This document shows positions 10,737 through 57,850 of a stretch of DNA of 64,000 bases, one piece after another. The stretch lies in contig NZ_FMZF01000002.1 in assembly GCF_900102745.1 (NCBI RefSeq), forward strand, positions 310,001 through 374,000. Direction: 5' to 3'. How positions within the stretch are numbered: position 1 is the first letter of the stretch; each line of letters starts with the position of its first letter. Below the pieces are notes generated by a model. The model searched no databases. It was not told the origin of the DNA and saw only the letters and a program-made list of their open reading frames with translations. This stretch comes from Geodermatophilus telluris. GTDB taxonomy: Bacteria > Actinomycetota > Actinomycetes > Mycobacteriales > Geodermatophilaceae. Both the position numbers and the translations under genes were made by a program.

Positions 10737-10857
10737 AAGGACCTCCTCGCCCCCTGGAAGGACCTCCCTGCCCCCCACCGCTCGCAGGCTCGCGGCGGGC
10801 CCCTGCAGGGAGGCCGACAGCCGCTCGTGGCGGGCCCCTGCGAGGAGGCCGTTCCAG
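10737..10857. repeat. Nested pair of GC-rich hairpin repeats
   Basis: An inner copy (10756-10815, with GACAG to 10820) interrupts an outer copy (10737-10755 plus 10821-10857). Inner stem: CCTCCCTGC (10763-10771) with GCAGGGAGG (10805-10813). Outer stem: CCTCCTCGC (10742-10750) with GCGAGGAGG (10840-10848). Both stems pair perfectly although their sequences differ. The element lies between convergent marP and ephE and may also terminate them. Related copies are at 16421-16480 and 57785-57850. Confidence 0.75.
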
Positions 10858-10861
10858 CGCG

Positions 10862-11728
10862 TTACTTGGCCCAGGTGGTGATGGCGTCGTTGACCTCGGC
10901 GGGGGTCTCCTCGGGCGGGAAGTGCCCGGTGCCGGGCAGCTCGCGCCACGCGTAGGCCCCGGCGACGTAGCGGCCCGAGCCGCGGGCGGTGCGCGGCAGC
11001 ACCAGCGGGTCGGCGGTGCCGTGCAGCTGCAGCGTCGGCGCGGTGACCGGCGAGGCCATCCGGCGGGCGTAGCGCAGCCCGTCGGGGCGCAGCTGGGAGC
11101 GGCCGGCCCAGCGGAAGTACTCCATCGACCCGTACGCGGCCTGCGGGATCCGCGCCGCCGACCGGTAGCGCCGCACCGCCTCGGCGAAGTCGGCGGTCTG
11201 CGTCCAGGCCGGCCCCGCCCACCGGCGCAGGTACTCCGCGACCGGGTCGTCGTCGGCCCGGGTCAGCCGGTGCTCGGGCCAGCGCGGCACCTGGAAGCCC
11301 AGGACGTGCCGCAGCGCGCGCCGCTGGGCGCGGTCGGCGAGCCCGGCGCGCAGCAGCCGCGGGTGGGCCATCGAGACGACGACCAGCCGGCGGACGCTGC
11401 GCGGGTGCAGCGCGGCCATCGTCCAGGCCACCAGCGCACCCCAGTCGTGCCCGACGACGACGGCGTCGCGCTCCCCGAGCGCCCGGACCAGCGCCGCCGC
11501 GTCGCTCGCCGCCGTCGGCAGGTCGTACCCGCGCGGGGGCTTGTCGCTGGCGCCGTAGCCGCGCAGGTCCGGGGCGACGGCCCGGAAGCCGGCGTCGGCG
11601 AGCGCGGGGAGCTGGGCCCGCCAGGTCCACCAGTACTGCGGGAACCCGTGCAGCAGCAGCACCAGCGGACCCTCGCCGGCCTCGGCCAGGTGCAGCCGGA
11701 CCCCGTTGGCGGAGGTGTCGCGGTGCAC
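10862..11728 (-). CDS. ephE: Alpha/beta-fold hydrolase, epoxide hydrolase type
   Basis: Soluble epoxide-hydrolase-like enzyme, about 288 residues. The oxyanion-hole motif HGFPQYWW, the nucleophile Asp in GHDWGA, the acid Asp in HGTADPLV and the base His in GTGHFPPEE are all present, and a cap-domain Tyr is seen in QAAYGSMEYFRW. The first usable start after the upstream stop is GTG at 11728; no canonical start exists further upstream, so the mature protein is slightly shorter than mycobacterial EphE. It follows the holin-like membrane gene on the same strand. The physiological epoxide is unknown. Confidence 0.88.
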   Translation of the reverse strand: MHRDTSANGVRLHLAEAGEGPLVLLLHGFPQYWWTWRAQLPALADAGFRAVAPDLRGYGASDKPPRGYDLPTAASDAAALVRALGERDAVVVGHDWGALVAWTMAALHPRSVRRLVVVSMAHPRLLRAGLADRAQRRALRHVLGFQVPRWPEHRLTRADDDPVAEYLRRWAGPAWTQTADFAEAVRRYRSAARIPQAAYGSMEYFRWAGRSQLRPDGLRYARRMASPVTAPTLQLHGTADPLVLPRTARGSGRYVAGAYAWRELPGTGHFPPEETPAEVNDAITTWAK

Positions 11729-11826
11729 CCACGGCCCCGGCAGCAGGACGCTGGTGGCGTCGGGCCGCTCGTCGGTGGGGACGGCGGCCGGGGCCGGGCG
11801 CCCGCCGCGCCGCCCGGGAGCGGGAC

Positions 11827-12348
11827 TCAGACCAGGTAGGTGTCGGGGCCGCGGCGCTCGACCCGGCCGTTGCTCACCGTCGGCAGGGCGCGGCGGCGCT
11901 GACCGGGCTCCTCGCGGTGCATGACGTCGGGCAGCTCGCGCAGCGACTCGAGGGTGCGCTCCGGCTTGTCGATCTTCTTGAGCATCCGCAGGCCGACCAG
12001 CCCGGCCACGCCGGCGATGACGAGCAGCAGGACGGTGACGATGAGGTAGGACACCCAGCGCGGCAGGCCGAGCGCGGTCAGCGCCTCGGCCAGGGTGACG
12101 AACAGGTAGATGCCGGCGAAGGCCAGCAGCACGCCGGCGACGGCGAACAGCGCGATGCTGACACCGGCCTTCTTCGCCGAGCGGCCGATCTCGGCCTTGG
12201 CCAGCTCGATCTCGCCGCGGACCAGCGTGGACACGTCGGCCATCGCGCTCTGCACCAGCGCGCCCACCGACGGGTCGGTGTGCGCGGAGACGGCGGACGT
12301 GGCGTGGCGCCCGCTGGCCGGGGTGGACGAGGACACGCTGTGGGCCAC
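11827..12348 (-). CDS. Phage-holin-family (Holin-X) membrane protein
   Basis: A 173-residue protein with a soluble N-terminal helix (SMADVSTLVRGEIELAKAEI) and two hydrophobic helices (about residues 65-120), the arrangement of the putative actinobacterial holin superfamily III. It is a chromosomal housekeeping family equivalent to Rv3669 and not a sign of prophage. The GTG at 12348 has GGAGGA six bases upstream and is preferred over an upstream in-frame ATG at 12447. The cytosolic C-terminus is basic. Function is unknown. Confidence 0.82.
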   Translation of the reverse strand: MAHSVSSSTPASGRHATSAVSAHTDPSVGALVQSAMADVSTLVRGEIELAKAEIGRSAKKAGVSIALFAVAGVLLAFAGIYLFVTLAEALTALGLPRWVSYLIVTVLLLVIAGVAGLVGLRMLKKIDKPERTLESLRELPDVMHREEPGQRRRALPTVSNGRVERRGPDTYLV

Positions 12349-12430
12349 GGGGGCTCCTCCCTGCTCTGGCGACCGCGGCGCGGCCTGTCGCAGGTGATCG
12401 TCCCGCATCCCGGACGGACCCGCGCCCCGA

Positions 12431-12455
12431 CCTCCCCGATCGTGCACGGGGGAGG
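12431..12455 (-). terminator. Terminator hairpin after acs
   Basis: CCTCCCC (12431-12437) can pair with GGGGAGG (12449-12455) across an 11-base loop, about 30 bases beyond the acs stop on the minus strand. There is no U-tract. Confidence 0.5.
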
Positions 12456-12483
12456 CCGGGACGGGTCGGTCCGTCGGTCCTCG

Positions 12484-14436
12484 CTAGTCCTCGGAGGAGG
12501 AGTTGGCGGGGAGCTTGTCCTTGATCAGGTTCATCACCGAGGAGTCGGTCAGCGTGGTGACGTCGCCGAGCTCGCGGTTCTCGGCGATGTCGCGGAGCAG
12601 CCGGCGCATGATCTTGCCCGAGCGGGTCTTGGGCAGCTCCTGCACGACCATGATCTGGCGCGGCTTGGCGATCGGGCCGATGTCCCGGGCCACGTGGGTG
12701 CGCAGCGTCTGCACCAGCTCGTCCCCCGAGTCCTCGGCGCTGCCGCGGAGGATGACGAACGCGACGATGCCCTGGCCGGTGGTCGGGTCGCTGGCACCGA
12801 CGACCGCGGCCTCCGCCACCGCCGGGTGGGCGACGAGGGAGGACTCCACCTCGGTGGTGGAGATGCGGTGCCCGGACACGTTCATGACGTCGTCCACCCG
12901 GCCGAGCAGCCAGATGTCGCCGTCGTCGTCCTTCTTGGCGCCGTCCCCGGCGAAGTAGACCTCCGTGCCGAACCGCGACCAGTAGGTGTCGACGTAGCGG
13001 TCGTCGTCGCCCCAGATGGTGCGCAGCATCGACGGCCACGGCTCGGTGAGCACCAGCAGGCCGGTGGTGTCGTCGCCGAGCTCGTTGCCCTCGTCGTCGA
13101 CGACCTTGGCCGAGATGCCGGGGAAGGGCGTCTGCGCCGAGCCGGGCTTGAGGTCCGTCACGCCGGGCAGCGGGTTGATCATGTGCGCGCCGGTCTCGGT
13201 CTGCCACCAGGTGTCCACGATCGGGCAGCGGCCGCCGCCGATGTTCTTGTGGTACCAGAGCCAGGCCTCGGGGTTGATCGGTTCTCCGACCGAGCCGAGC
13301 ACGCGCAGGCTGGACAGGTCGAACCCCGCCGGGACGTCCTCGCCCCACTTCATGAAGGTCCGGATCACCGTGGGCGCGGTGTAGAGGATCGTCACCCCGT
13401 ACTTCTCGATGATCTCGAACCAGCGGCCGCGGTGCGGGGTCTCCGGGGTGCCCTCGTACATGATCGAGGTGGCCCGGTTGGCCAGCGGCCCGTAGACGAT
13501 GTAGCTGTGCCCGGTGACCCAGCCGATGTCGGCCGAGGTCCAGAAGACGTCGGTGTCGGGCTTGAGGTCGAAGGACGCCCAGTGCGAGTACGCGACCTGG
13601 GTGAGGTAGCCGCCCGAGGTGTGCAGGATGCCCTTGGGCTTCGCCGTCGTCCCGGACGTGTACATGATGTAGAGCGGGTGCTCGGCGTCGAAGGCCTCGG
13701 GCGTGTGCTCGGTCGACTGCCGGTCGACGACGTCGTGCCACCACAGGTCGCGGCCCTCGGTCCACTCGACGTCCTGCTCGGTGCGGCGGACGACGAGCAC
13801 GTTGCGCACGCTGTCGGTGCGCGCGACCGCCTCGTCCACCGCCGGCTTCAGCGCGCTGGGCGCACCGCGCCGGTAGCCGCCGTCGGAGGTGACGACGACG
13901 ACGGCGCCGGAGTCGGTGATCCGGCTGGCCAGCGCGTCGCTGGAGAAACCGCCGAACACGACCATGTGGACGGCGCCGATGCGGGCGCAGGCCAGCATGG
14001 CCACGACCGCCTCGGGGATCATCGGCATGTAGACGGCCACCCGGTCGCCGGCCTGCACCCCGAGCTCGAGCAGCGCGTTGGCCGCCTTGCACACCTCGTC
14101 CTTGAGCTGGGCGTAGGTGATCGTGCGGGTGTCGCCGGGCTCGCCTTCCCAGTGGTAGGCGACCTGCTCGCCGTGGCCGTCCTCGACGTGCCGGTCGACG
14201 CAGTTGTAGGCGATGTTGAGCTTGCCGCCGACGAACCACTTGGCGAAGGGCGGGTTGCTCCAGTCGAGCACCTGGTCCCACTCCTGCGCCCAGCTCAGCC
14301 GGCGGGCGGCGGACTCCCAGAACGCCAGGCGGTCGCGCTCGGCCTCGGCGTAGACGTCGGCGCCGACGTTCGCCTGCGCGGCCAGCTGCTCCGGCGCCGG
14401 GAAGCGGTGGCCCTCCTGCACGTCCGACTCGCTCAC
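12484..14436 (-). CDS. acs: Acetyl-CoA synthetase (AMP-forming)
   Basis: Activates acetate to acetyl-CoA through acetyl-AMP. The 650-residue length is typical. Visible motifs are the P-loop-like [15 protein letters not shown], the adenylate motif [10 protein letters not shown], and the C-terminal TRSGKIMRR with the acetylatable lysine K608. The GTG start at 14436 has GGAGGGA eight bases upstream. A TACGGT box on the minus strand near 14500 may be its -10. It is equivalent to Rv3667. In mycobacteria the dpp transporter genes follow; here the FhuF-like gene, the redox locus and the cob region follow instead. Confidence 0.97.
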
Positions 14437-14571
14437 GGTGCGGCTCCCTCCATGTCGTGCGTGGGGTCGCCCCGTCGCGACCCGGCGTGTCCCAGCACAC
14501 ACCGTAGGGCCCGCCCGGATGGTGCGTGAGCCCCCGCAACGTCGGTGCAGCGGGACGGCCAGACTGGGCCG

Positions 14572-15279
14572 GTGGACGGCGGCCCGCAGGCGCAGGTGGC
14601 GGCCCGGGTGCCCGGCGCGGCCGGCCTCGGGCTGCTGGCGCCGCCGTCGGCCCGGCCGCTGCCCGCGGAGCTGCTCGCCGACCCGGCCTGGACCGCGCGG
14701 CGGGTCGCGGCGCTGGGCCGCCGGTACCGCAGCGCCGACCGCCGCGTGCTGGCCACCGTCTGGTGGTACTCGGCATCGGCGGTGCTGCTCGCGCCCCTCG
14801 CCGCCGGGCTGGCCACCGGCCGGCCCCTCTCGGCACGGCTGGCCGACACCACGCTGTACGAGCTGGCCGGCGGGCCGCTGGTCGCCGCGGTCTCGGCCGC
14901 GCCGGCCGGACCGGACCCGGCGGGGGAGCTGCGCGCGGCACTCGCCGCGGCGGTCGCCGCGGTGGCCGAGGCGGGCGGGGTGCGCGAGCGGCCGCTGTGG
15001 GCGGTGGCCGCCGACTCCCTCGCCGGCCGGCTGCTCGCCGTGGGCCGGGCGCTGGACGCCGTCGGCCCGATGACCGCACTGGCCGCCCCGGTGGCCGCGG
15101 CCGTGGGGTCCCCGTTGCCGGCGCCGCGGTTCACCGACGTCGGCGGCACCCGCTTCGTCCGGCGGGTCTCCTGCTGCCTGCTCTACCGGCTGCCGCCCGA
15201 GCCGATGTGCACCGCCTGCCCGGGCCGTCCCCCCGAGCACCGGCGGGTGCTGCTGGAGGCCGCCGCCGGGCAGTGGTGA
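14572..15279 (+). CDS. FhuF-like (2Fe-2S)-binding protein
   Basis: About 235 residues. The C-terminal segment [20 protein letters not shown] has the C-C-x10-C-x2-C pattern of FhuF-type proteins, which hold a 2Fe-2S cluster and reduce ferric siderophores in E. coli. The N-terminal part is Ala/Leu-rich and helical with a [13 protein letters not shown] motif seen in the family. I chose GTG at 14572 because CAGACT (14560-14565) lies 6 bases upstream as a leaderless -10 box; GTG at 14545 is an alternative. Divergent from acs and convergent with the QueA-like gene. No siderophore genes are nearby, so iron reduction is inferred. Confidence 0.75.
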
Positions 15280-15286
15280 CGGGCGG

Positions 15287-16312
15287 CTACGGCAGGAACA
15301 GCATCGAGTCGCCGTACTCGTGCCACAGCCAGCCCCCCGCGGTGGCCGCCCGGTACGCGGTGTCCACGAGCTCCGTCCCGGCCACGGCGTGCAGGAGCAG
15401 CAGGTGGCTGGCCTCGGGGGCGTGCAGGCCGGTGACGAGGCCGGTGACCGCGCGCGCCGGGTGGTCGGGGCCCAGCACCAGGTCGGTCCAGCCCTCGCCG
15501 GGCCGGGTGACCCCGTCGTCCCCGGTCACCGTCTCCAGCGCGCGGGTCGCCGTGGTGCCCACCGCGACCACCCGCCTCCCCGCCGCCCGGGTGGCGTTGA
15601 CCAGCCGCGCGGTCACCTCCGGGACGCGGTAGCGCTCGGGCGCCGGCGGCTCGTGCAGCTCGGGGCTGGAGACGCCGGCGTGCAGCACCAGCGGCACCAC
15701 GGGGACCCCGCGGGCCAGGAGCCGCACCAGCAGCCGGTCGGTGAACGGCCGCCCGGCGCTGGCGTTCTCGGCGCTGCCGGGCTCGGTGGCGTACACGTTC
15801 TGCGCCTCGGCCAGCCGCACCGGCGCCCGCAGGTAGCCGTAGCGCACCGGCTGCCCGTGCTCGGCGAGGTAGGGCACCAGCGCGACGGCCGGCGTCACGT
15901 GCGCCCGCCAGAGCCGCGACGGGCGCGCCGGGTCGGGGAAGCCGGTGCGCAATCGCAACCGCACACCGCCGGGCAGGCCGAGCTCCGTGCCGGGCTCCAG
16001 GCCGGTCTCCGGGCCGTCGTTGCCGGGGCGGCGGACCTCGACCACCCAGCTGCCGTCGTCGAGCGCCGTCGACACGTGCAGCGGCACGACCCGCCCGTCG
16101 GCGCGGCGGGCCTCGAGCCGGGCGGCCAGCGTGGCCGAGGTGTTGACCACCAGCAGGTCGCCGGGCTCGAGCAGGTCGGGCAGGTCGCGGAAGCGGGCGG
16201 CGGTGGTGCTGCCGGGCCGCACGGCCATCAGCCGGACGCCGTCGCGAGACAGCCCGCGGTGCTCCGGCGGCTCGGTGGCCTCGCTGCCGGGCGGGAGGGC
16301 GAAGGCGGTCAC
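15287..16312 (-). CDS. QueA-like S-adenosylmethionine:tRNA ribosyltransferase-isomerase
   Basis: A 341-residue protein with QueA-family features: [14 protein letters not shown] near the N-terminus, [20 protein letters not shown] in the middle and a C-terminal [11 protein letters not shown]. Classical QueA transfers and isomerises the ribosyl part of SAM onto preQ1-tRNA in queuosine synthesis. No other queuosine gene (tgt, queC/D/E/G) is in the window, and the gene overlaps an SDR gene by 4 bases under a SoxR-type promoter. Both facts suggest a paralogue with a different role. The residue pattern otherwise looks intact, so it is probably an active enzyme. Confidence 0.85.
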
Positions 16313-17055
16313 CGCGCCGCCTCCGCCGGGAGGAGGTCCGCGGCGCGCAGCCGGCCGCTGGGCGGCGGGTCGTCGAGCAGCCGCAGGAACGCCGGGACGA
16401 CGTCCTCCGGGGCGGGCAGTGGAAGGACCTCCCCGCCCCCCGCCACTCGCGAGCTCGCGGCGGGCCCCTGCGCGGAGGCCACGGGCGCGGCGGCCCGGTG
16501 CATGTCGGTGGCCATGTCGCCGGGGTCGACGGCGTACACCCGCAGCGCGGGGTGCTCGACGGCGAGGACGGCGGTCAGCAGGTCCAGGGCGGCCTTGCCG
16601 GCGCCGTACCCGCCCCAGCCCGGGTAGGCCTCCACCGCGGCGTCGCTGCTGACCGACACCACCGTGCCGCCGGCCCGCTCGAGCGCCGGGAGCACCGCCT
16701 GCACCAGCGCCAGCGGCGCCACGGTGTTCACGGCCAGCACCCGCTCGAGGGCGGCGGGCGGGAGGTCGGCCAGCCGGGGCAGCGGGGTCGGGCCGAGGTC
16801 GCTGGCGTTGTTCACCAGCAGGTCGAGCCGGTCGCCCACGGCGGCGGCGAGGTCGGCGCGGTGGGCGGGGTCGGTGACGTCACCGGGCAGGGCGGTGACC
16901 CGGCAGGCAGCGGGCAGGGCGGCGACGGTGCGGGTGAGCCGGCCGGCGTCGCGGGCGTCGACGACGAGCCGCCAGCCGCGGGCGGCGAGGGCGGCGGCCA
17001 GGGCGGCGCCGAGGCCGCGGGAGGCACCGGTGACGAGTGCGGTGGGAGGTGTCAT
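16309..17055 (-). CDS. Short-chain dehydrogenase/reductase under SoxR-type promoter
   Basis: NAD(P)-dependent oxidoreductase of 248 residues. It shows the TGASRGLG dinucleotide-binding motif (residues 9-16), NNAS (82-85), the catalytic Ser in SVSSDAA, and Y150-x3-K154 in the GYGAGKAAL segment. Residues about 192-211 (ASAQGPAASSRVAGGGEVLP) are encoded by an in-frame copy of a dispersed hairpin repeat and probably form an extra loop before the C-terminal helix. The ATG at 17055 is preceded by a SoxR-type promoter. It overlaps the QueA-like gene by 4 bases (GTGA), so the two form an operon. Substrate unknown. Confidence 0.88.
   Translation of the reverse strand: MTPPTALVTGASRGLGAALAAALAARGWRLVVDARDAGRLTRTVAALPAACRVTALPGDVTDPAHRADLAAAVGDRLDLLVNNASDLGPTPLPRLADLPPAALERVLAVNTVAPLALVQAVLPALERAGGTVVSVSSDAAVEAYPGWGGYGAGKAALDLLTAVLAVEHPALRVYAVDPGDMATDMHRAAAPVASAQGPAASSRVAGGGEVLPLPAPEDVVPAFLRLLDDPPPSGRLRAADLLPAEAAR
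16421..16480. repeat. 60-bp hairpin repeat inserted in frame inside the SDR gene
   Basis: This 60-base stretch matches the inner repeat at 10756-10815 with about eight differences, sharing GGAAGGACCTCC at one end and GCGGCGGGCCCCTGC plus GGAGGCC at the other. Its stem arms are CCTCCCCGC (16428-16436) and GCGCGGAGG (16470-16478), with one mismatch. Being 60 bases long, it keeps the SDR frame open. Confidence 0.8.
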
Positions 17056-17061
17056 GGCGCT

Positions 17062-17092
17062 ACCCTCGAACTTCAAGTCCACTTGAGGTCAA
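17062..17092 (-). promoter_or_regulatory. soxR box: SoxR operator and promoter of the SDR/QueA-like operon
   Basis: On the minus strand, TTGACC (-35, 17092-17087) and GAGGGT (-10, 17067-17062) are separated by 19 bases, the stretched spacer typical of MerR/SoxR-activated promoters. The near-palindrome CTTCAAGTCCACTTGAGG (17071-17088) covers the spacer and closely matches the E. coli SoxR box CCTCAAGTTAACTTGAGG. The -10 ends 6 bases before the SDR ATG, so the transcript is probably leaderless. soxR is transcribed away on the other strand and may be autoregulated. Confidence 0.85.
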
Positions 17093-17101
17093 GGGGGTGC
17101 G

Positions 17102-17638
17102 GTGGACGGGCTGTCGATCGGTGAGGTGGCCGCCCGGGCCGGGCTGGCGCCGTCGGCGCTGCGCCACTACGAGGCGCAGGGGCTGGTCACCGCCACCCGC
17201 ACGGCCGGCGGCGCCCGGCGCTTCCCGCGGTCGGTGCTGCGGCGGCTGGCCTTCGTGCGGGCGGCGCAGAACGTGGGGCTCTCGCTGCCGGAGATCCGCG
17301 AGGCGCTCGGCACGCTGCCCGAGGGGCGGACGCCGTCGGCGCGCGACTGGGCGCGCCTGTCGCGCGGCTGGCGCGACCGGCTCGACGCGCAGATCGCGGC
17401 GCTGGAGCAGCTGCGCGACGGGCTGTCCTCGTGCATCGGGTGCGGCTGCCTGTCGCTCACCGCCTGCGCGCTGTCCAACCCGGGCGACGCCGCCGCGGGG
17501 GAGGGGACCGGCGCGCGCCGGCTCTCGCCACTGCTGCGCCGCACACCGCCGGCGAGCAACGCCGTCCCGGCACCTCGCGCACCGAGGCACGGCGGGGCAG
17601 GATCCGGGACGGGGCCGTCCACCCCGTCCACCGGATGA
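17102..17638 (+). CDS. soxR: SoxR redox-sensing MerR-family regulator
   Basis: MerR-fold transcription factor with an N-terminal winged helix (LSIGEVAARAGLAPSALRHY), a dimer helix, and the diagnostic cysteine cluster C111-x2-C114-x-C116-x5-C122 for the 2Fe-2S sensor. In actinobacteria SoxR responds to redox-active compounds more than to superoxide itself. It is longer than usual (178 against about 150 residues) because of a Pro/Ala/Gly-rich tail after residue 125. The start GTG at 17102 follows AAGGGGG. A SoxR box lies in the divergent intergenic region, and the DODA-type dioxygenase gene starts 10 bases after the stop. Confidence 0.95.
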   Translation: MDGLSIGEVAARAGLAPSALRHYEAQGLVTATRTAGGARRFPRSVLRRLAFVRAAQNVGLSLPEIREALGTLPEGRTPSARDWARLSRGWRDRLDAQIAALEQLRDGLSSCIGCGCLSLTACALSNPGDAAAGEGTGARRLSPLLRRTPPASNAVPAPRAPRHGGAGSGTGPSTPSTG

Positions 17639-17648
17639 GGAGAGCCGC

Positions 17649-18500
17649 ATGACGCTCATGCCCGCCGCCTTCATCGGTCACGGCAACCCGATGAACGCCC
17701 TCGAGCGCAACCGCTACACCGACGCCTGGCGGGCCCTGGGGCGCTCGGTGCCCCGGCCGCGGGCCATCCTGGTGGTCTCGGCCCACTGGTACGTGCACGC
17801 GACGGCGGTGACGGCGATGGCCAGGCCGCGCACCATCCACGACTTCTTCGGCTTCCCGCCGGAGCTGTTCGACGTCAGCTACGACGCCCCGGGGCTGCCG
17901 GAGCTGCACGAGCAGGTGGCCGACGTCGTCTCCCCGACCTGGGTGGGCGCCGACCTCGACAGCTGGGGCATCGACCACGGCACCTGGTCGGTGCTGCTGC
18001 ACGCGTTCCCCGAGGCCGACATCCCGGTCGTGCAGCTGTCCATCAACGCCCTCAAGGGCGCCGACTACCACCTGCAGATGGGCGCCGCGCTGGCCCCGCT
18101 GCGCGAGGACGGCGTCCTGGTGGTCGGCAGCGGGAACGTGGTGCACAACCTCGGCGGGGTCAGCCGCGCCATGCCCGACGCCGGGTTCGACTGGGCGCAG
18201 CGCTTCGACGAGCAGGTCAAGGAGCTCATGCTCACCGACCCGGCCGCGGTGGCCCGCCTCGACGGGCACCGCGACTTCGACCTCGCCGTCCCGACGCCCG
18301 ACCACTTCCTGCCGCTGCTCTACGTGGCCGGCATGGCCGGCGCCACCGGGACGACGGCGGACGTGCTCGTCGACGGCTACGCCTACGGGTCGCTGTCGAT
18401 GACCTCCTACACCGTGGGCACGCCCGCGCCGAAGGCCGAGGGCAGCGGCTTCGCCGCCCCGCTGCCCGAGGCGCCGCCCCCGGACGGCGCCAACATCTAG
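17649..18500 (+). CDS. ygiD: Class III extradiol dioxygenase, DODA/YgiD type
   Basis: A 283-residue LigB-superfamily protein resembling 4,5-DOPA extradiol dioxygenase YgiD. Metal-binding histidines are visible in FIGHGNPMNAL near the N-terminus, SAHWYVH, and GSGNVVHNLG; IDHGTWSVLLH is also typical. Such enzymes cleave catechols using Zn or Fe. The ATG has GAGGAGAG upstream. It lies directly downstream of soxR, so it may be co-expressed. Its stop and the stop of the convergent cobA gene share the palindrome CTAG at 18497-18500, leaving no space for a terminator. Confidence 0.9.
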   Translation: MTLMPAAFIGHGNPMNALERNRYTDAWRALGRSVPRPRAILVVSAHWYVHATAVTAMARPRTIHDFFGFPPELFDVSYDAPGLPELHEQVADVVSPTWVGADLDSWGIDHGTWSVLLHAFPEADIPVVQLSINALKGADYHLQMGAALAPLREDGVLVVGSGNVVHNLGGVSRAMPDAGFDWAQRFDEQVKELMLTDPAAVARLDGHRDFDLAVPTPDHFLPLLYVAGMAGATGTTADVLVDGYAYGSLSMTSYTVGTPAPKAEGSGFAAPLPEAPPPDGANI

Positions 18501-25708: not shown

Positions 25709-25710
25709 CG

Positions 25711-27790: not shown

Positions 27791-27900
27791 GGCAGGAGGC
27801 GGCGGCGGGAGTTCCTGACTCCCCGGCCTCCTGGTCGGGAGGCCGGGTCACAGTGGCGGGACCGCGCCGGAGTCGCACCGGGCTTCCTCCACTGCCGTCG
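27791..27900 (-). promoter_or_regulatory. Cobalamin (B12) riboswitch
   Basis: Read on the minus strand, the leader of the ChlID gene contains the conserved B12-aptamer blocks in order: GGAAGCCCGGTGCGACTCCG (27888-27869), GCGCGGTCCCGCCACTGTGA (27866-27847), and the B12-box-like GGAGTCAGGAACTCCCGCC (27822-27804). The outer arms containing GGCAG and CTGCC can close the P1 stem. Binding of adenosylcobalamin is expected to switch off the ten-gene operon running from ChlID to cobA, including cobalt uptake. End coordinates are approximate to about 10 bases. I found no second copy upstream of the other cob genes. Confidence 0.92.
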
Positions 27901-43212: not shown

Positions 43213-43221
43213 ACACCGGTC

Positions 43222-46514: not shown

Positions 46515-46515
46515 G

Positions 46516-46534: not shown

Positions 46535-46609
46535 GGTGGGCGCGCGTGCGCGGTTTGGGGGCTGGAACGGTGCGTCGGCGCACACCGTCGCCGGCGGGCA
46601 GCCGCGACG

Positions 46610-47836: not shown

Positions 47837-47885
47837 GGGTCAGGTCAAGGCGCGCGCCCCGTCGGTTGTTCCCTGCAACGGCGTG

Positions 47886-49996: not shown

Positions 49997-50003
49997 CGGC
50001 GCG

Positions 50004-50009
50004 AGGCTA
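50004..50009 (-). promoter_or_regulatory. Leaderless -10 box of the cobH-cobIJ operon
   Basis: TAGCCT (50009-50004 on the minus strand) ends 7 bases before GTG 49996. No riboswitch is present between this box and the start, so this cob operon cannot be riboswitch-controlled in cis. Confidence 0.55.
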
Positions 50010-50041
50010 CGTCCCGCCGGGGAGCGGGTAGCGGGACGGGC

Positions 50042-51223
50042 ATGGCCCTCCCTCGCGTGCTCGTCCTCGTGCTGGCCGGTGGCGCCGGCGGCCGGCTCCA
50101 GCTGCTCACGGAGAACCGCGCCAAACCGGCCGTCCCGTTCGCCGGCGTCTACCGGCTCATCGACTTCCCGCTGAGCAACTGCCAGCACTCACAGATCGCC
50201 GACGTGTGGGTGTCGATCCAGCAGCACCCGACCTCACTGGCCGAGCACCTGGCCAACGGCCGGCCGTGGGACCTCGACCGCACCACCGGCGGCCTGATGA
50301 CGCTGCCGCCGTTCCAGGGCACCGAGCGCGGTGGGTGGAACACCGGCACCGCCAACTCGCTGTGGCGGCAGGCCGACCTGATCCGCGCGTTCGGCGCCGA
50401 TGCGCTCGTCGTGGTCAGCGCCGACGCCGTCTACGAGCTGGACTACCGAGAGGTCGCCGACGCCCACCTGGCGTCCGGGGCCGAGGTGACGATGGTGACC
50501 ACCGAGGTCGCCGCCGACGACGCCTCGCGCTACGGCATCGTGGAGGTCGACGGCGAGCGGGTGACCGGCTACGCCTACAAGCCCGACGAGCCGGCGACCA
50601 CGACGGCCACCAACGAGGTGTTCGTCTTCCGCCCGGGGCCCACCCTGGACCGGCTCGAGCAGCTGCGGTCCGAGCACGGCGAGGAGGGGCTCGAGGACCT
50701 GGGCACCCACCTGCTGCCCGCGCAGACGCAGGACGGCGGGGCCCGCGCGCACCCGCTGCGGGGCTACTGGCGCGACGTCGGCACGGTGGAGTCCTACTGG
50801 GAGGCGCACCAGGACTTCCTGTCCGCCGAGCCGCCGATCGACCTCGACGCCCCGGACTGGCCGATCCACACCCGCGGGGGCCGGCGCAGCGCGGCCCGGG
50901 TGCTCGACGACGGCCGGATCGAGAACAGCCTGCTGTCCGGCGGCACCCGCGTCTCCGGCGACGTGCGCGGCTCGGTGCTCTCGCCCGGCGTGGTGGTGGA
51001 GGCCGGCGCGACCGTCGTCGACTCGGTGCTGCTGCCCGGCGTGCGGGTCCGCTCGGGGGCGACGGTGACGCGCGCGGTGGTCGACGACGGCGTCGACGTA
51101 GGCCGCGGGTGCACGGTCGGCGGTGACGGCGACGTCACCCTGGTGGGCAGGCGGGCGCAGCTGGCCGAGGGCACGGAGATCGCGGCCGGCGCCCGCTACC
51201 CGGAGGACGAGCCGACGCGGTAG
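50042..51223 (+). CDS. glgC: Glucose-1-phosphate adenylyltransferase
   Basis: ADP-glucose pyrophosphorylase-like enzyme of 393 residues. [20 protein letters not shown] is the nucleotide-binding motif, followed by [20 protein letters not shown] and WFQGTADA-equivalent [12 protein letters not shown]. The C-terminal part has left-handed beta-helix repeats ([20 protein letters not shown]). It would make ADP-glucose for glycogen or related glucans. Divergent from cobH, and its 3' end overlaps the convergent cobG by 28 bases. The active-site loop is slightly atypical compared with classical GlgC, so a related sugar nucleotidyltransferase is possible. Confidence 0.87.
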
Positions 51224-52368
51224 CCGTCGGGGGTCGCGACGACGTCGAGGACCTCGCCGCGGGGCCGGCCGCAGCGGCGCTCGCACCCGGCCCAGTGCAC
51301 GCGGACACCGCCGGGCAGCGTCCCGCCGCCGACCGCGGCGGCCGCGTCGGCCCGCACGTCGGCCAGCGACCTCGCGCACCCGGGGCGGCCGGCGCAGGCG
51401 GTCACCCGCGTCCACGGGCTGTCGGCGTCGAACACCACGCCGGTGCGGTGCAGGTCGACGGCGGCGTCGTCCACGCGGTCCTCGGCGAGGTCGGGGACGA
51501 CGACGCTGCGCCAGGGGGTCAGCTGCACCTCGTCGGCGAGCGAGGCGAGCAGGTCGGCCTGGCCGGCGGAGAGCCGGCCCAGGGGCAGGACGCCGACCAG
51601 CGCCGTCCGGCCGTCGGCCTGCGCCTCCGCGCCGACGGGGCCGGCCTCCGGCGCCCCGGGCAGGCCGGCCGGGGTGACACGGGGGCCGGGCAGCCGGGCC
51701 GCCACCCGCGCGGGGCCCTCGTCGAGCTCGGCCAGCCGCCACGCGGTGCCGCCCTGCGCGGCGCGCTCGGCGGAGAAGGCGCGGGTGGCGGCCAGCAGCA
51801 GGCCGATGGCGTCCGCGGGGGCCGCGCGCAGCCCGCTGTCGGTGCCCGCGAGCACCAGGGCCACCGAGGCGGGGGACAGCGCGAGCAGGCCGACGTCGCC
51901 CCCGAGCCCGGTCACGTCGCCGCGGCCGTCGTCGAGGGTGGCGAGGAAGCGGCCGGGGAGGCCGGCGAGGGCGGGGTCGGCGCACAGGCCGGCGTCCAGG
52001 GCGGTGACCCACGGCCGCGCGTCGAGGTGCCCGCCGGCCCGGCCGGTGAGCGCGCTGGCCAGCACGTTGCGCACCCGCTCGTGGCTCTCGCTGGGCAGCA
52101 GGCCGGCCGCGGCCAGCCGGGCGCCGAGCGCGGCCGGCGCACCCGGTGCGAGCCCGCGCAGCTGCAGGTTGCCGCGGCTGGTCAGCTCCAGCGCGCCGTC
52201 GCCGAGGTCCCGCGCGGCGGCGGCGAGCACCCGCAGCTGCGCCGCGGTGAGCAGGCCGCCGGGGACGCGCACGCGGGCCAGTTCGCCGTCGGCGGCCGGG
52301 TGGGTCTGCAGCGCGCCGGGGCAGGCGTCGGCGCGGGCACGGGCGGTGGTCCGGGCTGCGGTGGTCAT
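51196..52368 (-). CDS. cobG: Precorrin-3B synthase, oxygen-dependent
   Basis: A 390-residue sulfite-reductase-like protein. Cysteines for the siroheme-type 4Fe-4S cluster are seen as C-x5-C in ACAGRPGCARS and C-x3-C in GCERRCGRP. The nitrite/sulfite reductase ferredoxin half-domain contains ELTSRGNLQLRGL. CobG hydroxylates C20 of precorrin-3A with O2 and marks the aerobic route. TAGCCT lies 10 bases upstream of the ATG, so the leader is very short. It is monocistronic as far as can be seen. Confidence 0.93.
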   Translation of the reverse strand: MTTAARTTARARADACPGALQTHPAADGELARVRVPGGLLTAAQLRVLAAAARDLGDGALELTSRGNLQLRGLAPGAPAALGARLAAAGLLPSESHERVRNVLASALTGRAGGHLDARPWVTALDAGLCADPALAGLPGRFLATLDDGRGDVTGLGGDVGLLALSPASVALVLAGTDSGLRAAPADAIGLLLAATRAFSAERAAQGGTAWRLAELDEGPARVAARLPGPRVTPAGLPGAPEAGPVGAEAQADGRTALVGVLPLGRLSAGQADLLASLADEVQLTPWRSVVVPDLAEDRVDDAAVDLHRTGVVFDADSPWTRVTACAGRPGCARSLADVRADAAAAVGGGTLPGGVRVHWAGCERRCGRPRGEVLDVVATPDGYRVGSSSG

Positions 52369-52412
52369 GGCGCCCGCGAGGCTACGACGCGGGCGCCACG
52401 ACCCCGCGGGGT

Positions 52413-53219
52413 TCAGGCCTGGTGGCGGGCCCGGTCGAAGGACATCCACACCTCGCGGCGCTCCTTGCGGGTGGTCACCTGCCCCATCGCGGCCACGCGG
52501 CGGCGCTGCTCGAAGGAGGCCACGTGCTGGACGACGGCCACCTCGGCGGCGCGCATGGCCCGCTCGGCGGCGAACTCGGCCGGCGTCGACGGGTACTCGT
52601 CGGCCGAGACCGGGGAGACGTCGTCGTCGGCGGACTCCCGCGCGTACGGGCTGTCGGGCGGCAGGTGGCCGCCGACCCGGCCGTAGGCGCCGAGCAGGAG
52701 CAGCACCGCCCCGGCGACGACGGAGAAGCCGACGTTGCTCAGTCCGAACGCCAGGACGTTGAGGTCGGTGTTGAGCACGGCGAGGTTGGCCAGCGCGGAG
52801 ACGAGGAACAGCACGCCGATGACGATCATGACCGTCGAGGCGGTGCGCGGGCTGCGGAAGGCGGCGACGACCAGCACGACGGCGGTCACGATCGAGATCG
52901 TCGACAGCAGGCCGTTCGAGGACAGGCCGAGGACCTGCTCGCCGTCGGTGGAGAAGAACGCCAGCCCGTTGGCGAAGCCGAGGACGCCGAAGACGGCGAT
53001 CACCCCGGCGACGGCGAACGCGCCGATGCGCTGCACGGTGTAGACGCGGGCGCCCTGCCCGGCCGGGGCGTCGGCGGGCCCGTCGGCACCCGGCTCGGCG
53101 GCACCCGGCTCGGTCGCCGGGGACGCCCCGGTGGCGGGCGGCTCGGCGGGGGTGGAGGTGGAGCGGGCGGTCGCCGGTGCGCGGTCGGCCGTCCGGTGGC
53201 GGTGCAGGGACAGGGCCAT
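52413..53219 (-). CDS. DUF4383-like membrane protein with long cytosolic tails
   Basis: A 268-residue protein with four hydrophobic helices (about residues 70-190; RIGAFAVAGVIAVFGVLGFA is the first) resembling DUF4383. The N-terminal 65 residues are Pro/Ala/Thr-rich, and the C-terminal 75 residues are charged. Function unknown. ATG 53219 has GAGGAGC upstream. Read in the minus direction, the 150-base region before the gene contains GGGAAC and GGTAC segments that might belong to an ECF-sigma promoter; I cannot be more definite. Confidence 0.78.
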   Translation of the reverse strand: MALSLHRHRTADRAPATARSTSTPAEPPATGASPATEPGAAEPGADGPADAPAGQGARVYTVQRIGAFAVAGVIAVFGVLGFANGLAFFSTDGEQVLGLSSNGLLSTISIVTAVVLVVAAFRSPRTASTVMIVIGVLFLVSALANLAVLNTDLNVLAFGLSNVGFSVVAGAVLLLLGAYGRVGGHLPPDSPYARESADDDVSPVSADEYPSTPAEFAAERAMRAAEVAVVQHVASFEQRRRVAAMGQVTTRKERREVWMSFDRARHQA

Positions 53220-53369
53220 GACGGGGCTCCTCGGGTTCGGGTGGTGCCGTACCGGTTGTTCCCAACTCGATGGCGTACGGATGCACCTGGTTCCGGACTC
53301 CCTCGTCCCGTGTTCCACCCGGGCGTGTCGGACCGGGAAGAGGCGGAGCGGGGACGCGGTTGACCGGCC

Positions 53370-53699
53370 GTGACCCAGCGGAACGACCTCGATCTGCACT
53401 CGGAGTTCCTGCGCGCCGACCTGTTCTTCTCGATGGGCCAGCCCGTCGAGGCCGCGCGCCTGCTCGAGCCGCTGGTGGCGGCGGAGCCGGGCAACGCGGC
53501 GGCCCTGGAGCTGCTCGCCCGCAGCTACTTCGGCTCCGCGCAGCTGCGGCGGGCCGAGGCGGCGCTGCTGCGCCTGGTCGACCTGGCGCCGGCCAACGGG
53601 TGGGCCCGCCGCGCGCTGGCCCGCACGCTGGAGCGGCAGAACCGCCCGGCCGAGGCGCGGGTGCACCACCGCCTGGCCGACGCCCTCGGCGCCGGCTGA
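53370..53699 (+). CDS. Small TPR-like protein
   Basis: A 109-residue helical protein with about two and a half tetratricopeptide repeats: SMGQPVEAARLLEPLVAAEP, ELLARSYFGSAQLRRAEAAL, LVDLAPANGWARRALARTLE. Such repeats mediate protein contacts. Starts at GTG 53370 just after TTGACC GGCC; no good ribosome binding site is seen. Divergent from the DUF4383 gene and upstream of cobN, but a strong hairpin separates it from cobN. Confidence 0.8.
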   Translation: MTQRNDLDLHSEFLRADLFFSMGQPVEAARLLEPLVAAEPGNAAALELLARSYFGSAQLRRAEAALLRLVDLAPANGWARRALARTLERQNRPAEARVHHRLADALGAG

Positions 53700-53701
53700 C
53701 C

Positions 53702-53744
53702 CCCGTCGCGGCGCCGGTCGCGCGGCGGCCGGCGCCGCGACGGG
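53702..53744 (+). terminator. Strong hairpin between the TPR gene and cobN
   Basis: CCCGTCGCGGCGCCGG (53702-53717) and its exact complement (53729-53744) form a perfect 16-bp stem with an 11-base loop, beginning 2 bases after the TPR stop and ending 3 bases before the cobN -10 box. Probably a terminator insulating cobN. Confidence 0.7.
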
Positions 53745-53747
53745 CGG

Positions 53748-53753
53748 TAGCGT
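53748..53753 (+). promoter_or_regulatory. Leaderless -10 box of cobN
   Basis: TAGCGT ends 8 bases before GTG 53762. Any -35 element would fall inside the adjoining 16-bp stem. Confidence 0.55.
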
Positions 53754-53761
53754 CTGACCGC

Positions 53762-56700
53762 GTGTTCGTCCTGCTGTCCACCAGCGACACCGATCTGCTC
53801 TCCGCCCGCGCCAGCGGCGCCGACTGGCGGCTGGGCAACCCCGCCCGGCTGGGCGACGACGGCACCGCCGCGCTGACCGAGGGCGCGCAGCTGGTCGTCG
53901 TCCGCCTCCTCGGGGTGCGCCGGCAGTACGAGGAGCTGCTCGCGCCGCTGCTGGCCGGGCCCGCGCCGGTCGTCGTCCTCGGCGGGGAGCAGGTGCCCGA
54001 CGCCGAGCTGATGGAGCTCTCGACCGTCCCGATGGGCGTGGCCACCGAGGCGCACGGCTACCTGGCGCAGGGCGGCCCGGACAACCTCGTGCAGCTGCAC
54101 CGGTTCCTCTCCGACACGGTGCTGCTCACCGGGGAGGGCTTCGAGCCGCCGTCGGTGGCGCCGGACTGGGGGGTGCTGCAGCGGCCGTCGTCCGGCACCG
54201 GCCCGCGGGTCGCCGTCCTCTACTACCGGGCGCACCACCTCGCGGGGAACACCGCCTTCGTCGAGGCGCTGTGCGGGGCGATCGAGGAGGCCGGCGGACA
54301 GGCGCTGCCGGTGTTCACCTCCTCGCTGCGCAGCGTGTCCGACGAGCTGCTCGACGTGCTGCGCACCGCCGACGCGCTCGTCGTCACCGTGCTCGCCGCC
54401 GGTGGCTCCCGGCCGGCCACCGCGCAGGCCGGCGGGGACGACGGCGCGTGGGACGTCGGCCAGCTCGCCGCGCTGGACGTGCCGGTGGTGCAGGGGCTGT
54501 GCCTCACCCGGTCGCGGGCGGAGTGGCTGGCCGACGACGACGGCCTCTCACCGCTCGACGTCGGCAACCAGGTGGCCATCCCCGAGTTCGACGGCCGGCT
54601 GATCAGCGTGCCGTTCTCCTTCAAGGAGACCGACGTCGACGGGCTGACGCACTACGTCGCCGACCCCGAGCGGGCGGCGCGGGTGGCCGGGACGGCGGTG
54701 GCGCACGCGCGGCTGCGGCACACCCCGCCCGCCGAGCGCCGGATCGTGGTGATGCTCAGCGCCTACCCGACCAAGCACGCGCGCATCGGCAACGCCGTCG
54801 GGCTGGACACCCCGGCGTCGGTGGTGCGGCTGCTGGCCGCCATGCAGGGGCAGGGCTACGACACCGGCCCGTTCGACGGCCCCGACGCGCTGCCCGGTGT
54901 GGCCGACCTCGACGGCGACGCGCTGGTCCACGCGCTCATCGCCGCGGGTGGCCAGGACGCCGACTGGCTGACCGAGGAGCAGCTGTCGGGCAACCCGGTG
55001 CGCATCCCCGCCGCGGACTACCGGCGCTTCTTCGACACCCTGCCGGCCGACCTGCGCGGCGCGATGGTCGAGCACTGGGGCGAGCCGCCGGGCTCGCTGT
55101 TCGTGGACGACTCGGGACCCGACGGCCCCGCCGTCGTCTTCGCCGCGCTGCGGGCCGGCAACGTCGTGGTGATGGTGCAGCCGCCGCGCGGCTTCGGCGA
55201 GAACCCGATCGCCATCTACCACGACCCCGACCTGCCGCCCTCGCACCACTACCTGGCCGCCTACTGGTGGCTGCGGTCGGTCTTCGGCGCGCACGCGCTG
55301 GTGCACGTCGGCAAGCACGGGAACCTGGAGTGGCTGCCGGGCAAGACCGTCGGCCTGTCGGCCTCCTGCGGGCCGGACGCCGCGATCGGGGACCTGCCGC
55401 TGGTCTACCCGTTCCTGGTCAACGACCCGGGGGAGGGCTCGCAGGCCAAGCGCCGCGCGCACGCCACGCTGGTCGACCACATGGTCCCGCCGATGGCCCG
55501 GGCCGACTCCTACGGCGACATCGCGCGGCTGGAGCAGCTGCTCGACGAGCACGCGAACGTCGCGGCGATGGACCCGGCGAAGCTGCCGGCGGTCCGCGCG
55601 CAGATCTGGACGCTGCTGCAGGCCGCGAAGCTCGACCACGACCTCGGGCTGGCCGAGCGCCCGGAGGACGACCACTTCGACGAGATGATCCTGCACGTCG
55701 ACGGCTGGCTCTGCGAGATCAAGGACTCGCAGATCCGCGACGGCCTGCACGTGCTCGGGACGCCGCCGTCGGGTCAGGACCGGGTCGACCTGGTGCTGGC
55801 GATGCTGCGGGCGCGGCAGATCTGGGGCGGCGCGGTGGCGCTGCCGGGGCTGCGCGAGGCGCTGGGCCTGACCGAGGACGGCAGCGCCGGCCTGCGGGCC
55901 ACCGACGCCGTCGAGGCGCAGGCGGAGGCGCTGGTCGCGGGCATGGAGGCCGCCGGCTGGACGGGCGGCGCCGTCGGGCCGGTGGTGCGCTCCGTGCTCG
56001 GGCGGGAGGACGCGACGGTCGCCGACGTGCTGCGGTTCGCCGTCGACGAGGTGGTGCCACGGCTGGAGCGCACGACCGACGAGCTCGACGCCACGCTGCA
56101 CGCCCTCGACGGCGGGTACGTGCCGGCCGGGCCGTCGGGGTCGCCGCTGCGCGGGCTGGTCAACGTGCTGCCGACCGGGCGGAACTTCTACTCGGTCGAC
56201 CCCCGGGCGGTCCCGTCCCGGCTGGCCTGGGAGACCGGCCAGGCGATGGCCGAGTCGCTGCTGGAGCGCTACCTGGCCGACACGGGGGAGTACCCGCCCT
56301 CGGTGGGCCTGTCGGTGTGGGGGACGTCGGCGATGCGGACCTCCGGTGACGACGTCGCCGAGGTGCTCGCGCTGCTCGGCGTCCGGCCGGTGTGGGACGA
56401 CGCGTCGCGGCGGGTGACCTCGCTGGAGCCGGTGCCGCTCGACGAGCTCGGCCGGCCGCGGATCGACGTCACGGTGCGGATCTCGGGCTTCTTCCGGGAC
56501 GCCTTCCCGCACGTGGTGACCATGCTCGACGACGCGGTGACGCTGGTGGCGGGGCTCGACGAGCCGGCGGCGCGGAACTTCGTGCGCGCCCACGTGGAGG
56601 CCGACGTCGCGGGGCACGGCGACCGGCGGCGGGCGACCACCCGGGTGTTCGGCTCCAAACCGGGCGCCTACGGGGCCGGGCTGCTCTCGCTGATCGACTC

Positions 56701-57388
56701 CCGCGACTGGCGCGGCGACGCCGACCTGGCCGAGGTCTACGCGGTGTGGGGCGGCTACGCCTACGGCCGCGACCTCGACGGCGTGCAGGCCCGGCCGGAC
56801 ATGGAGGCGGCCTACCGGCGCATCGCGGTCGCGGCGAAGAACGTCGACACCCGCGAGCACGACATCGCCGACTCCGACGACTACTTCCAGTACCACGGCG
56901 GGATGGTGGCCACGGTCCGCGCGCTCACCGGGCGGGCACCGGCGGCCTACGTCGGCGACTCCACCCGCCCCGAGCAGGTGCGCACCCGGTCGCTGACCGA
57001 GGAGACCTCGCGGGTGTTCCGGGCGCGGGTGGTCAACCCGAAGTGGCTGCAGGCGATGCGCCGGCACGGCTACAAGGGCGCCTTCGAGCTGGCCGCGACC
57101 GTCGACTACCTGTTCGGCTACGACGCCACGACCGGCGTGGTGGCCGACTGGATGTACGAGCAGCTCACGCAGACCTACGTGCTCGACCCGGAGAACCGGG
57201 AGTTCCTGGAGCGGTCCAACCCGTGGGCGCTGCACGGGATGGCCGAGCGGCTGCTCGAGGCGGTCGACCGCGGGATGTGGGCCGAGCCGGACCCCGCGGT
57301 GCTCGCCGGGCTGCGCCAGGCGTACCTCGACACCGAGGGTGACCTCGAGGGTGGGGAGACGCCGGCCCAGCAGGGCGCCGCGACCTGA
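53762..57388 (+). CDS. cobN: Cobaltochelatase large subunit
   Basis: A 1208-residue CobN that inserts Co(II) into hydrogenobyrinic acid a,c-diamide. Typical motifs include HARIGNAVGLDTPAS, GSLFVDDSGPDGPAVVFAAL-type core, PPSHHYLAAYWWLR, HVGKHGNLEWLPGKTVGLS, NVLPTGRNFYSVDPRAVPS and the C-terminal DYLFGYDATTGVVADWMYEQ. It needs an AAA+/vWA partner; cobS and cobT chelatase genes are absent, but ChlID at 25.7-27.7 kb fits that role. Leaderless start after TAGCGT. No riboswitch precedes it. Confidence 0.97.
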   Translation: MFVLLSTSDTDLLSARASGADWRLGNPARLGDDGTAALTEGAQLVVVRLLGVRRQYEELLAPLLAGPAPVVVLGGEQVPDAELMELSTVPMGVATEAHGYLAQGGPDNLVQLHRFLSDTVLLTGEGFEPPSVAPDWGVLQRPSSGTGPRVAVLYYRAHHLAGNTAFVEALCGAIEEAGGQALPVFTSSLRSVSDELLDVLRTADALVVTVLAAGGSRPATAQAGGDDGAWDVGQLAALDVPVVQGLCLTRSRAEWLADDDGLSPLDVGNQVAIPEFDGRLISVPFSFKETDVDGLTHYVADPERAARVAGTAVAHARLRHTPPAERRIVVMLSAYPTKHARIGNAVGLDTPASVVRLLAAMQGQGYDTGPFDGPDALPGVADLDGDALVHALIAAGGQDADWLTEEQLSGNPVRIPAADYRRFFDTLPADLRGAMVEHWGEPPGSLFVDDSGPDGPAVVFAALRAGNVVVMVQPPRGFGENPIAIYHDPDLPPSHHYLAAYWWLRSVFGAHALVHVGKHGNLEWLPGKTVGLSASCGPDAAIGDLPLVYPFLVNDPGEGSQAKRRAHATLVDHMVPPMARADSYGDIARLEQLLDEHANVAAMDPAKLPAVRAQIWTLLQAAKLDHDLGLAERPEDDHFDEMILHVDGWLCEIKDSQIRDGLHVLGTPPSGQDRVDLVLAMLRARQIWGGAVALPGLREALGLTEDGSAGLRATDAVEAQAEALVAGMEAAGWTGGAVGPVVRSVLGREDATVADVLRFAVDEVVPRLERTTDELDATLHALDGGYVPAGPSGSPLRGLVNVLPTGRNFYSVDPRAVPSRLAWETGQAMAESLLERYLADTGEYPPSVGLSVWGTSAMRTSGDDVAEVLALLGVRPVWDDASRRVTSLEPVPLDELGRPRIDVTVRISGFFRDAFPHVVTMLDDAVTLVAGLDEPAARNFVRAHVEADVAGHGDRRRATTRVFGSKPGAYGAGLLSLIDSRDWRGDADLAEVYAVWGGYAYGRDLDGVQARPDMEAAYRRIAVAAKNVDTREHDIADSDDYFQYHGGMVATVRALTGRAPAAYVGDSTRPEQVRTRSLTEETSRVFRARVVNPKWLQAMRRHGYKGAFELAATVDYLFGYDATTGVVADWMYEQLTQTYVLDPENREFLERSNPWALHGMAERLLEAVDRGMWAEPDPAVLAGLRQAYLDTEGDLEGGETPAQQGAAT

Positions 57389-57474
57389 GCCGACACCCGC
57401 GCGCAGCGTGACGGCGCGCCGGGATCTGGCCGGAACCGACGCGTAAACCCTGTGCGCTGGGTAACCCCGGGCGC

Positions 57475-57738
57475 ATGGGCATCCTCAACCGACTCCTCGG
57501 AACTGCTGAGACCACGGCTCGTCGGGGCGCCGCCGGTGGCCGCGCCGCTGCGGGTCGCACCGCGGCCGGCGGCCGTGGGATGGGCGGCCGCGGCATGGCC
57601 ACCGGCCGTGGGATGGGCCGCGGGATGGGCCGCACCCGCATGGCCACCCCGCCCCGGCGCACGGGCCGCGGGGTGCCGAGCACCGCGGCCTCCGGTGGCC
57701 TGGGCCGGCTGCTCGGGTCGCTGACCGGCCGCCGCTGA
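57475..57738 (+). CDS. Small Gly/Arg/Met-rich protein, unknown
   Basis: An 87-residue, highly basic protein. The centre (about 34-52) has RGM repeated four times. The ends are related to each other: ILNRLLGT near the start and GLGRLLGS near the end. It has no acidic cluster and no membrane segment. Composition resembles RG-rich nucleic-acid-binding tails, but that is only analogy. Upstream GGGTAA (57459-57464) might be a -10 for an alternative sigma factor. A perfect 11-bp hairpin follows the stop, which supports a real transcription unit. Confidence 0.65.
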   Translation: MGILNRLLGTAETTARRGAAGGRAAAGRTAAGGRGMGGRGMATGRGMGRGMGRTRMATPPRRTGRGVPSTAASGGLGRLLGSLTGRR

Positions 57739-57744
57739 AGCAAG

Positions 57745-57784
57745 GGCCACCCTCCTCGCACGCTCGGCGCGGGGGAGGGTGGCC
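57745..57784 (+). terminator. Perfect 11-bp terminator-like hairpin
   Basis: GGCCACCCTCC (57745-57755) pairs exactly with GGAGGGTGGCC (57774-57784) around an 18-base loop, 7 bases after the stop of the RGM-repeat protein. Confidence 0.65.
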
Positions 57785-57850
57785 GTTCCAGCACCTCACC
57801 TCCCCGCACTCGCTCCGCTCGTGCCGGGGCCCTGCGAGGGGGCCGTTCGC
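57785..57850. repeat. Third locus of the GC-rich hairpin repeat
   Basis: The segment shares CCGCTCGTG, CCCTGCGAGG and GGCCGTTC blocks with the outer repeat at 10821-10857. Stem arms CCTCCCCGC (57799-57807) and GCGAGGGGG (57834-57842) pair with one mismatch and one wobble. It fills the space between the terminator and the cobS stop. Confidence 0.65.

Follow-up and report, generated by a model that had tools for sequence, protein, structure and literature searches.

A REP-like, putatively mobile hairpin family of Geodermatophilaceae, mostly positioned directly behind stop codons

Rickettsia palindromic elements place a palindrome in frame within a protein gene, MIRU of mycobacteria are small actinobacterial repeats associated with stop codons, and E. 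coli REPs can stall ribosomes when a copy lies close to the stop. To our knowledge, MIRU do not form covarying hairpins. REPs of the GTAG and CGTC types are described as short dispersed palindromes, many per genome, located mostly close behind ORFs and sometimes inside them; the ends of GTAG REPs often supply a TAG stop codon, and stems and loops vary within families (PMC3733652). CGTC REPs are presented there as having no dedicated transposase (Di Nocera et al. 2013), and the main text of the same paper does not mention Geodermatophilus or Actinobacteria. The RAYT-associated REPs are high-copy hairpins that can be located immediately 3' of the stop codon of the transposase gene (PMC2817692). 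Among titles and abstract openings, a body of literature that mostly excludes subscription papers, we found no description of the hairpin family reported here.

The window analysed here is a stretch of 64,000 nt from Geodermatophilus telluris (contig NZ_FMZF01000002.1, positions 310,001 to 374,000). Four hairpin repeats at three loci had been proposed in it from the letters alone, and all four are present, together with a fifth that the proposal had overlooked:

10734..10736, + strand: TAG stop codon of a trypsin-like/Colicin_V gene (9555-10736; Pfam); the outer copy begins at the next base
10737..10754, + strand: left half of the outer copy, consisting of the head AAGGACC and the stem arm 10742-10750
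10755..10821, + strand: inner copy, complete (covariance model positions 1-67, 89.8 bits), within the loop of the outer copy
10821..10857, + strand: right half and tail of the outer copy, whose arm GCGAGGAGG pairs with 10742-10750 (fold)
16420..16486, + strand: SDR copy, complete, antisense to the SDR gene and read in frame (covariance model, alignment)
16309..17082, - strand: SDR gene carrying the in-frame copy (Pfam adh_short)
57739..57790, + strand: fifth copy, with a shortened loop, directly 3' of the TGA at 57736-57738 (model, fold)
57785..57850, + strand: incomplete tandem copy comprising the right half, situated between the fifth copy and cobS (model, fold)

As predicted, two stem positions distinguish the outer from the inner copy, and each of the two stems pairs perfectly. 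The SDR copy likewise exists, inside the SDR coding sequence and in frame, while its arms as originally quoted contain one C-C mismatch. The stem quoted for the fourth repeat (CCTCCCCGC/GCGAGGGGG) pairs poorly, and its folding equals that of shuffled sequences (z -0.07). This stretch beside cobS (57851-58627, assigned by Pfam) has an unpaired left arm, matches model positions 10-58 only, and is a 5'-truncated half copy. Next to it, the fifth copy (E 0.0025; folding z -4.18) adjoins a TGA that closes a 108-codon open frame absent from the gene calls. Taken by itself, folding energy does not stand out at the nested site (z -1.59) or at the SDR copy (z -1.27), and a weak model match at 4020-4075 (E 0.0082) is probably due to chance. 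A search against Rfam returned no relevant family in the window; at 10650-10950 there was one match below the gathering score (E 0.8). The same search placed a cobalamin riboswitch (RF00174, 34.8 bits) at 27809-27889 on the reverse strand.

The family extends far beyond the window. Allowing up to two mismatches, a 19-base pattern matched the 4.8-Mb genome at 120 places, compared with 22 for the reversed pattern. A covariance model built from 23 copies yielded at least 137 matches with E no higher than 1e-3 (E 6.7e-18 to 8.8e-4) among 150 scored candidates; this is a lower bound, since one further copy (L177:672-739) turned up later. Across 61 genomes, the model matched 34 of 37 Geodermatophilaceae, a family of soil bacteria, and none of 24 genomes from other families of the order. 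In a class-wide sample of 246 genomes, only one genome besides the own genome had a match, a single weak one (G062, from another family of the class, E 2.6e-4); the filters of both scans were stricter and miss weak matches. Among the copy-poor Geodermatophilaceae are G028 with five matches, and G029, G032, and G034 with none. The claim of a dispersed repeat family thus stands at the level of genome and family, and the outcome that would have undone it, copies limited to the window, did not occur. The hairpin family is not a product of chance.

Local accumulations of copies were seen as well. Four copies form an array with 63-nt spacing at C2:365561-365809, and seven lie within 28 kb at G000:C5:222555-250590, where two immediately follow genes for sigma-70 factors. 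Separately, a second dispersed palindrome, GTCCCACCCGAC..GTCGGGTGGGAC, occurs in exact form at nine places in the genome, including G000:C2:517307-517338 and C3:87166-87197. Some of these places directly adjoin copies of the hairpin family, and several of those are joined at GATCAG.

The unit measures about 58-75 nt and consists, in order, of an AAGGACC head, a variable arm, a C run and a short inner hairpin, then CGGGCCCCTG or a similar sequence, the complementary arm, and GGCC, which is followed by GTTCCA in 36 of the 137 copies. The outer stem is variable yet complementary, the internal loop conserved and asymmetric, and the inner stem short and covarying, with a terminal loop; at the foot of the stem, one conserved A is left without a partner. 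In an alignment fitted to the model (100 loci, 119 matches, 117 distinct copies), 97.6% of cells were paired versus 86.7% with partners shuffled irrespective of relatedness, and 227 versus 53 cells had changed on both sides. Sliding the partners by one to three columns reduced pairing to 40-56%. An alignment-free count, from which 14 of the 137 copies without a clear head or tail were left out, found all eight positions paired in 89 of 123 copies, with a mean of 7.37 of 8 compared with 5.09 after shuffling (shuffle maximum 5.39). Covariation had been proposed from two stem examples; pairing is in fact kept across 36 left arms, a far broader basis.

Most copies lie directly behind stop codons. 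With gene ends taken from a simple codon-usage caller trained on six window genes, and nested copies not counted as stop-adjacent, 93 of 137 copies start no more than 12 nt behind a gene on the same strand. Of the other 44, six lie inside called genes; the rest are antisense, nested, in tandem, or elsewhere. The gap from stop to copy was -2 to +3 nt in 89 of 90 measured cases, a measurement that left out 11 of the 137 copies (3 of the 93) without a clear head or tail. A gap of 2 followed TGA in 43 of 59 cases, and gaps of 0 or 3 followed TAG in 14 and 10 of 28, so that the G of the stop is found at -4 or -1 before AAGG. Copies away from stops often display CAG at -6 to -4 (C 83%, A 53%, G 64%; n = 36). 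Uniform landing on intergenic YWG sites predicts about 11% stop-adjacent copies (27 versus 218 sites, counted in the window only). In relatives, a stop triplet lies within a few bases of the head in 25 of 34 listed copies, a weak indication, as triplets in any frame were counted and some copies are nested; 5 of the 41 model matches fall outside this list.

Comparison with the relative G005 bears on the age of these stops. At C3:569942, C3:636638, and C3:655344 the copy-free G005 gene ends at the same codon; the stop is therefore probably older than the copy at these three places. At C3:588329, the copy is located roughly 20 nt ahead of the point where the G005 gene stops, and it provides a new TGA. 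Stop adjacency might also result from nothing more than a filter acting on old copies. In classes by similarity to the closest other copy, 55 of 81, 33 of 47, 4 of 6, and 1 of 3 copies are stop-adjacent, without a trend; by quarters of model score, best first, the counts are 20 of 34, 23 of 34, 26 of 34, and 24 of 35. The best-scoring copies are thus stop-adjacent somewhat less often, a slight trend that leaves room for selection. Regarding the surroundings, 40 of the 93 stop-adjacent copies face a convergent gene, 39 a co-directional gene at least 60 nt from the copy end, and 14 a closer one; the 69 gene ends of the window fall into the same classes as 24, 10, and 35.

That at least one copy arrived by insertion, as the original prediction held, is borne out at two sites: the SDR copy is missing from all 21 aligned relatives, and the nested locus C3:710292 is unnested in G005. 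The named relatives ranking highest by the SDR protein are Geodermatophilus, Blastococcus, and other Geodermatophilaceae. The SDR site is 51 nt (17 codons) longer than in most aligned relatives and 45 nt longer than in some; the element and a few bases stand in place of 12 nt in the three relatives compared. The inner copy of the window had been thought to split the outer one cleanly, but about 11 nt of the outer loop are missing relative to unnested orthologues, in which 11 nt occupy the position of the inner copy (two genomes). At C3:710292, G005 possesses the outer copy but no inner one; judged by eye, the own genome has 11 nt of that outer loop replaced, and a further 7 nt of the outer left side differ. 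A copy behind a stop in G009 faces 11 nt in G017, a figure that rises to 14 with the inclusion of three shared-looking bases, with no direction assigned to this pair, and at C3:655344 G005 has a different hairpin, of 32 nt. The replaced length comes from few cases, namely 12 nt at the SDR gene, 11 nt at the window nested site, and 11 nt by eye at C3:710292, and the ancestral state is firm for the SDR gene and presumed at the other sites. No target-site duplication was seen at the resolved insertions; about 11-12 nt were replaced instead.

Nesting, initially taken for one event, recurs at seven loci of the own genome, as identified by inspection of rows. At these loci the inner copy lies 18-25 nt behind the stop, inside the loop of the outer copy; an eighth row in the same range, C3:286295, is unnested. 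At least roughly fifty nested rows were counted by eye among the matches listed, own genome included. Local tandem duplication, which had been named as the outcome that would speak against insertion, fails to explain the nested copy. A single ancestral nested composite was rejected as well, since nested stems differ by locus and G005 shows no nesting at C3:710292.

A regular in-frame habit like that of the Rickettsia elements was also rejected: only 2 of 137 copies pass a two-sided coding test, and in four paralogous genes the copy breaks the frame. Several further copies were seen in or near coding sequences. The four paralogous genes, HNH-like by eye (G000:C8:149555, C8:186192, C3:723848, and C3:814882), carry the same or nearly the same copy in the same place, and the coding parts before and after it lie in different frames; this may be one old insertion that spread along with the genes. 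In Geodermatophilaceae bacterium URHB0062, the C-terminal end of the SDR relative carries another copy (L095:10705-10771). Copies with similar flanks in several species (L062:19902-19968, L079:19125-19191, L081:17808-17874, and L074:17763-17829) are possibly one orthologous place inside a gene.

Occupancy changes between species. We compared 21 own sites with G005; two had no flank match, one matched by one flank only, and one was unalignable, leaving 17. By eye, 4 of these are occupied alike, 2 hold a copy in opposite orientation, 3 a left-arm remnant, and 8 are empty, although one of the latter, C3:367792, may hold a short remnant; the flanks are mostly 90-97% identical. The window nested site contains a copy in 15 of the 20 relatives with both flanks (antisense in one) and none in 5, G021 being excluded for its missing left flank. 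In a tree of the flanks, several nodes of which have low support, empty sites fall on separate branches and sister species have different stems. The nested G015 and G008, with one CCCCGTCC-type copy, are sisters with a support of 1.00, and the G008 copy is like the inner copy of G015 except for one left-arm base. This pair suits an exchange of occupants through nesting, without proving it.

To place the family among known elements, we searched for Y1_Tnp, the RAYT transposase whose presence the original prediction had suggested checking. There were no matches in the own genome, in 23 genomes of the genus, or in 76 genomes of the family (12 genera; controls gave matches in 5 of 14); at genus level, the only two matches came from other families of the order. 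Absence from the 76 family genomes rules out a REP driven by a Y1_Tnp-type RAYT. REP tags are also scarce beside the stem. Within 8 nt on the left, GTAG occurs in 5 and CGTC in 0 of 125 copies, 12 of the 137 being left out for lack of a clear head or tail; on the right, read from outside, GTAG occurs in 0 and CGTC in 6 of 137. CGTC is found further out in the tail, away from the stem, in 38 of 137. The family therefore has the many dispersed palindromes, mostly behind genes, that define REPs and not the tag at the palindrome end, and it has the inverted ends of MITEs and not their target-site duplication.

We place a probability of roughly 60% on a REP-like, non-autonomous mobile palindrome specific to Geodermatophilaceae, which would be moved by a putative mobiliser and would strongly prefer gene 3' ends. 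Since the arms stay complementary even though the stem sequence varies freely, the putative enzyme likely recognises the element as a folded single strand. The C-W-G-N-R-G motif that precedes AAGG may reflect the landing site, landing would replace about 11-12 nt rather than duplicate the target, and sites could change their occupant, among other ways, when a new copy enters the loop of an old one. As part of the upstream gene's transcript, the hairpin may influence the mRNA 3' end, through stability or through stalling at the stop, which would presumably not be the main reason for its spread. This reading is weakened in that the one candidate mobiliser searched for, Y1_Tnp, is absent, that known transposition mechanisms do not account for the tight stop spacing, and that movement is deduced from sequence comparisons. 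A more specific proposal is true stop-codon targeting, in which the putative enzyme would land the folded element directly behind stops and replace about 11 nt without duplication, with loop insertions renewing the hairpins until nearly every species differs at one gene end; we hold it as a tentative possibility.

The strongest competitor, which we nevertheless regard as somewhat improbable, is a structured 3'-UTR RNA element under selection. Here the hairpin would have to start at the stop, where it protects the mRNA 3' end or acts on terminating ribosomes, and copies would spread via this benefit. The orientation and stop spacing of the copies agree with such a role, as do the two covarying helices with conserved unpaired parts and the bulged A, the preference for ends of transcription units, and the fact that the lowest-scoring copies are stop-adjacent at least as often as the best. 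Nine of ten scanned proteins are encoded directly upstream of a copy, including two sigma-70 factors, a ROK protein, an aminomethyltransferase-like protein, and DUF4193, with housekeeping functions among them. Yet copies are gained and lost between close species, and few gene ends have one (one of 71 called window genes). The gap varies with the stop codon used, a dependence more in keeping with a register set by sequence than with one set by the ribosome, and copies with mismatched arms persist at the window site in G005 and G001.

Ordinary intrinsic terminators of convergent genes would also appear as strong GC-rich hairpins at gene ends, and the different hairpin that the relative has in the same place at C3:655344 would suit them. 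However, base frequencies of the copies revealed no T run behind the stem, and a terminator scan at the window copy returned no terminator-like site. A separate hairpin of at least 11 bp follows within 90 nt of 31 of 92 stop-adjacent copies, compared with 8 of 460 mononucleotide shuffles. Since the T run is absent and separate hairpins often follow, the hairpins are not simply terminators; copies moreover occur inside genes and nested, and the conserved head and loop are unnecessary for termination, making this account unlikely. Least probable, in our view, are old immobile hairpins inherited vertically, whose stems would drift by compensatory mutation or gene conversion. Occupation of the window site in most relatives, the arm that G003 and G019 have in common there, and orthologous copies differing by a compensated pair at C3:431528 are what such hairpins would leave. 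Against this stand the SDR insertion confined to the own genome, the own sites that are empty in G005, the unrelated stems at one site in sister species, and the nested copies.

A mobile palindrome would extend REP-like elements to an actinobacterial family in which the transposase thought to drive REPs elsewhere was not found, and what moves transposase-less REPs would become testable in a culturable group. Stop anchoring combined with hairpin exchange at one site offers a natural experiment on short hairpins behind stops, and for annotation, copies account for a small in-frame insert and an altered C-terminus. Features new to such elements are the lineage, a unit built of two helices, the very close anchoring to stops, a replaced stretch of about 11 nt, and nesting that recurs.

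In comparison with known systems, the SDR copy resembles Rickettsia palindromic elements, while in-frame copies are exceptional here (2 of 137). Like MIRU as described, the hairpins are associated with stop codons. Like MITEs they are non-autonomous with inverted ends, and unlike MITEs they replace about 11-12 nt without target-site duplication. Relative to the RAYT REPs as portrayed in PMC2817692, they have no Y1_Tnp in the family genomes and are nested rather than arranged in inverted pairs. The closest resemblance is to GTAG/CGTC REPs, which are also hairpins close behind ORFs that sometimes supply the stop, and which may be without a transposase. The Geodermatophilaceae unit differs in its greater length, its two helices with an internal loop, and the general lack of a tag beside the stem, and its stop spacing is tighter than the <20 bp given in PMC3733652.
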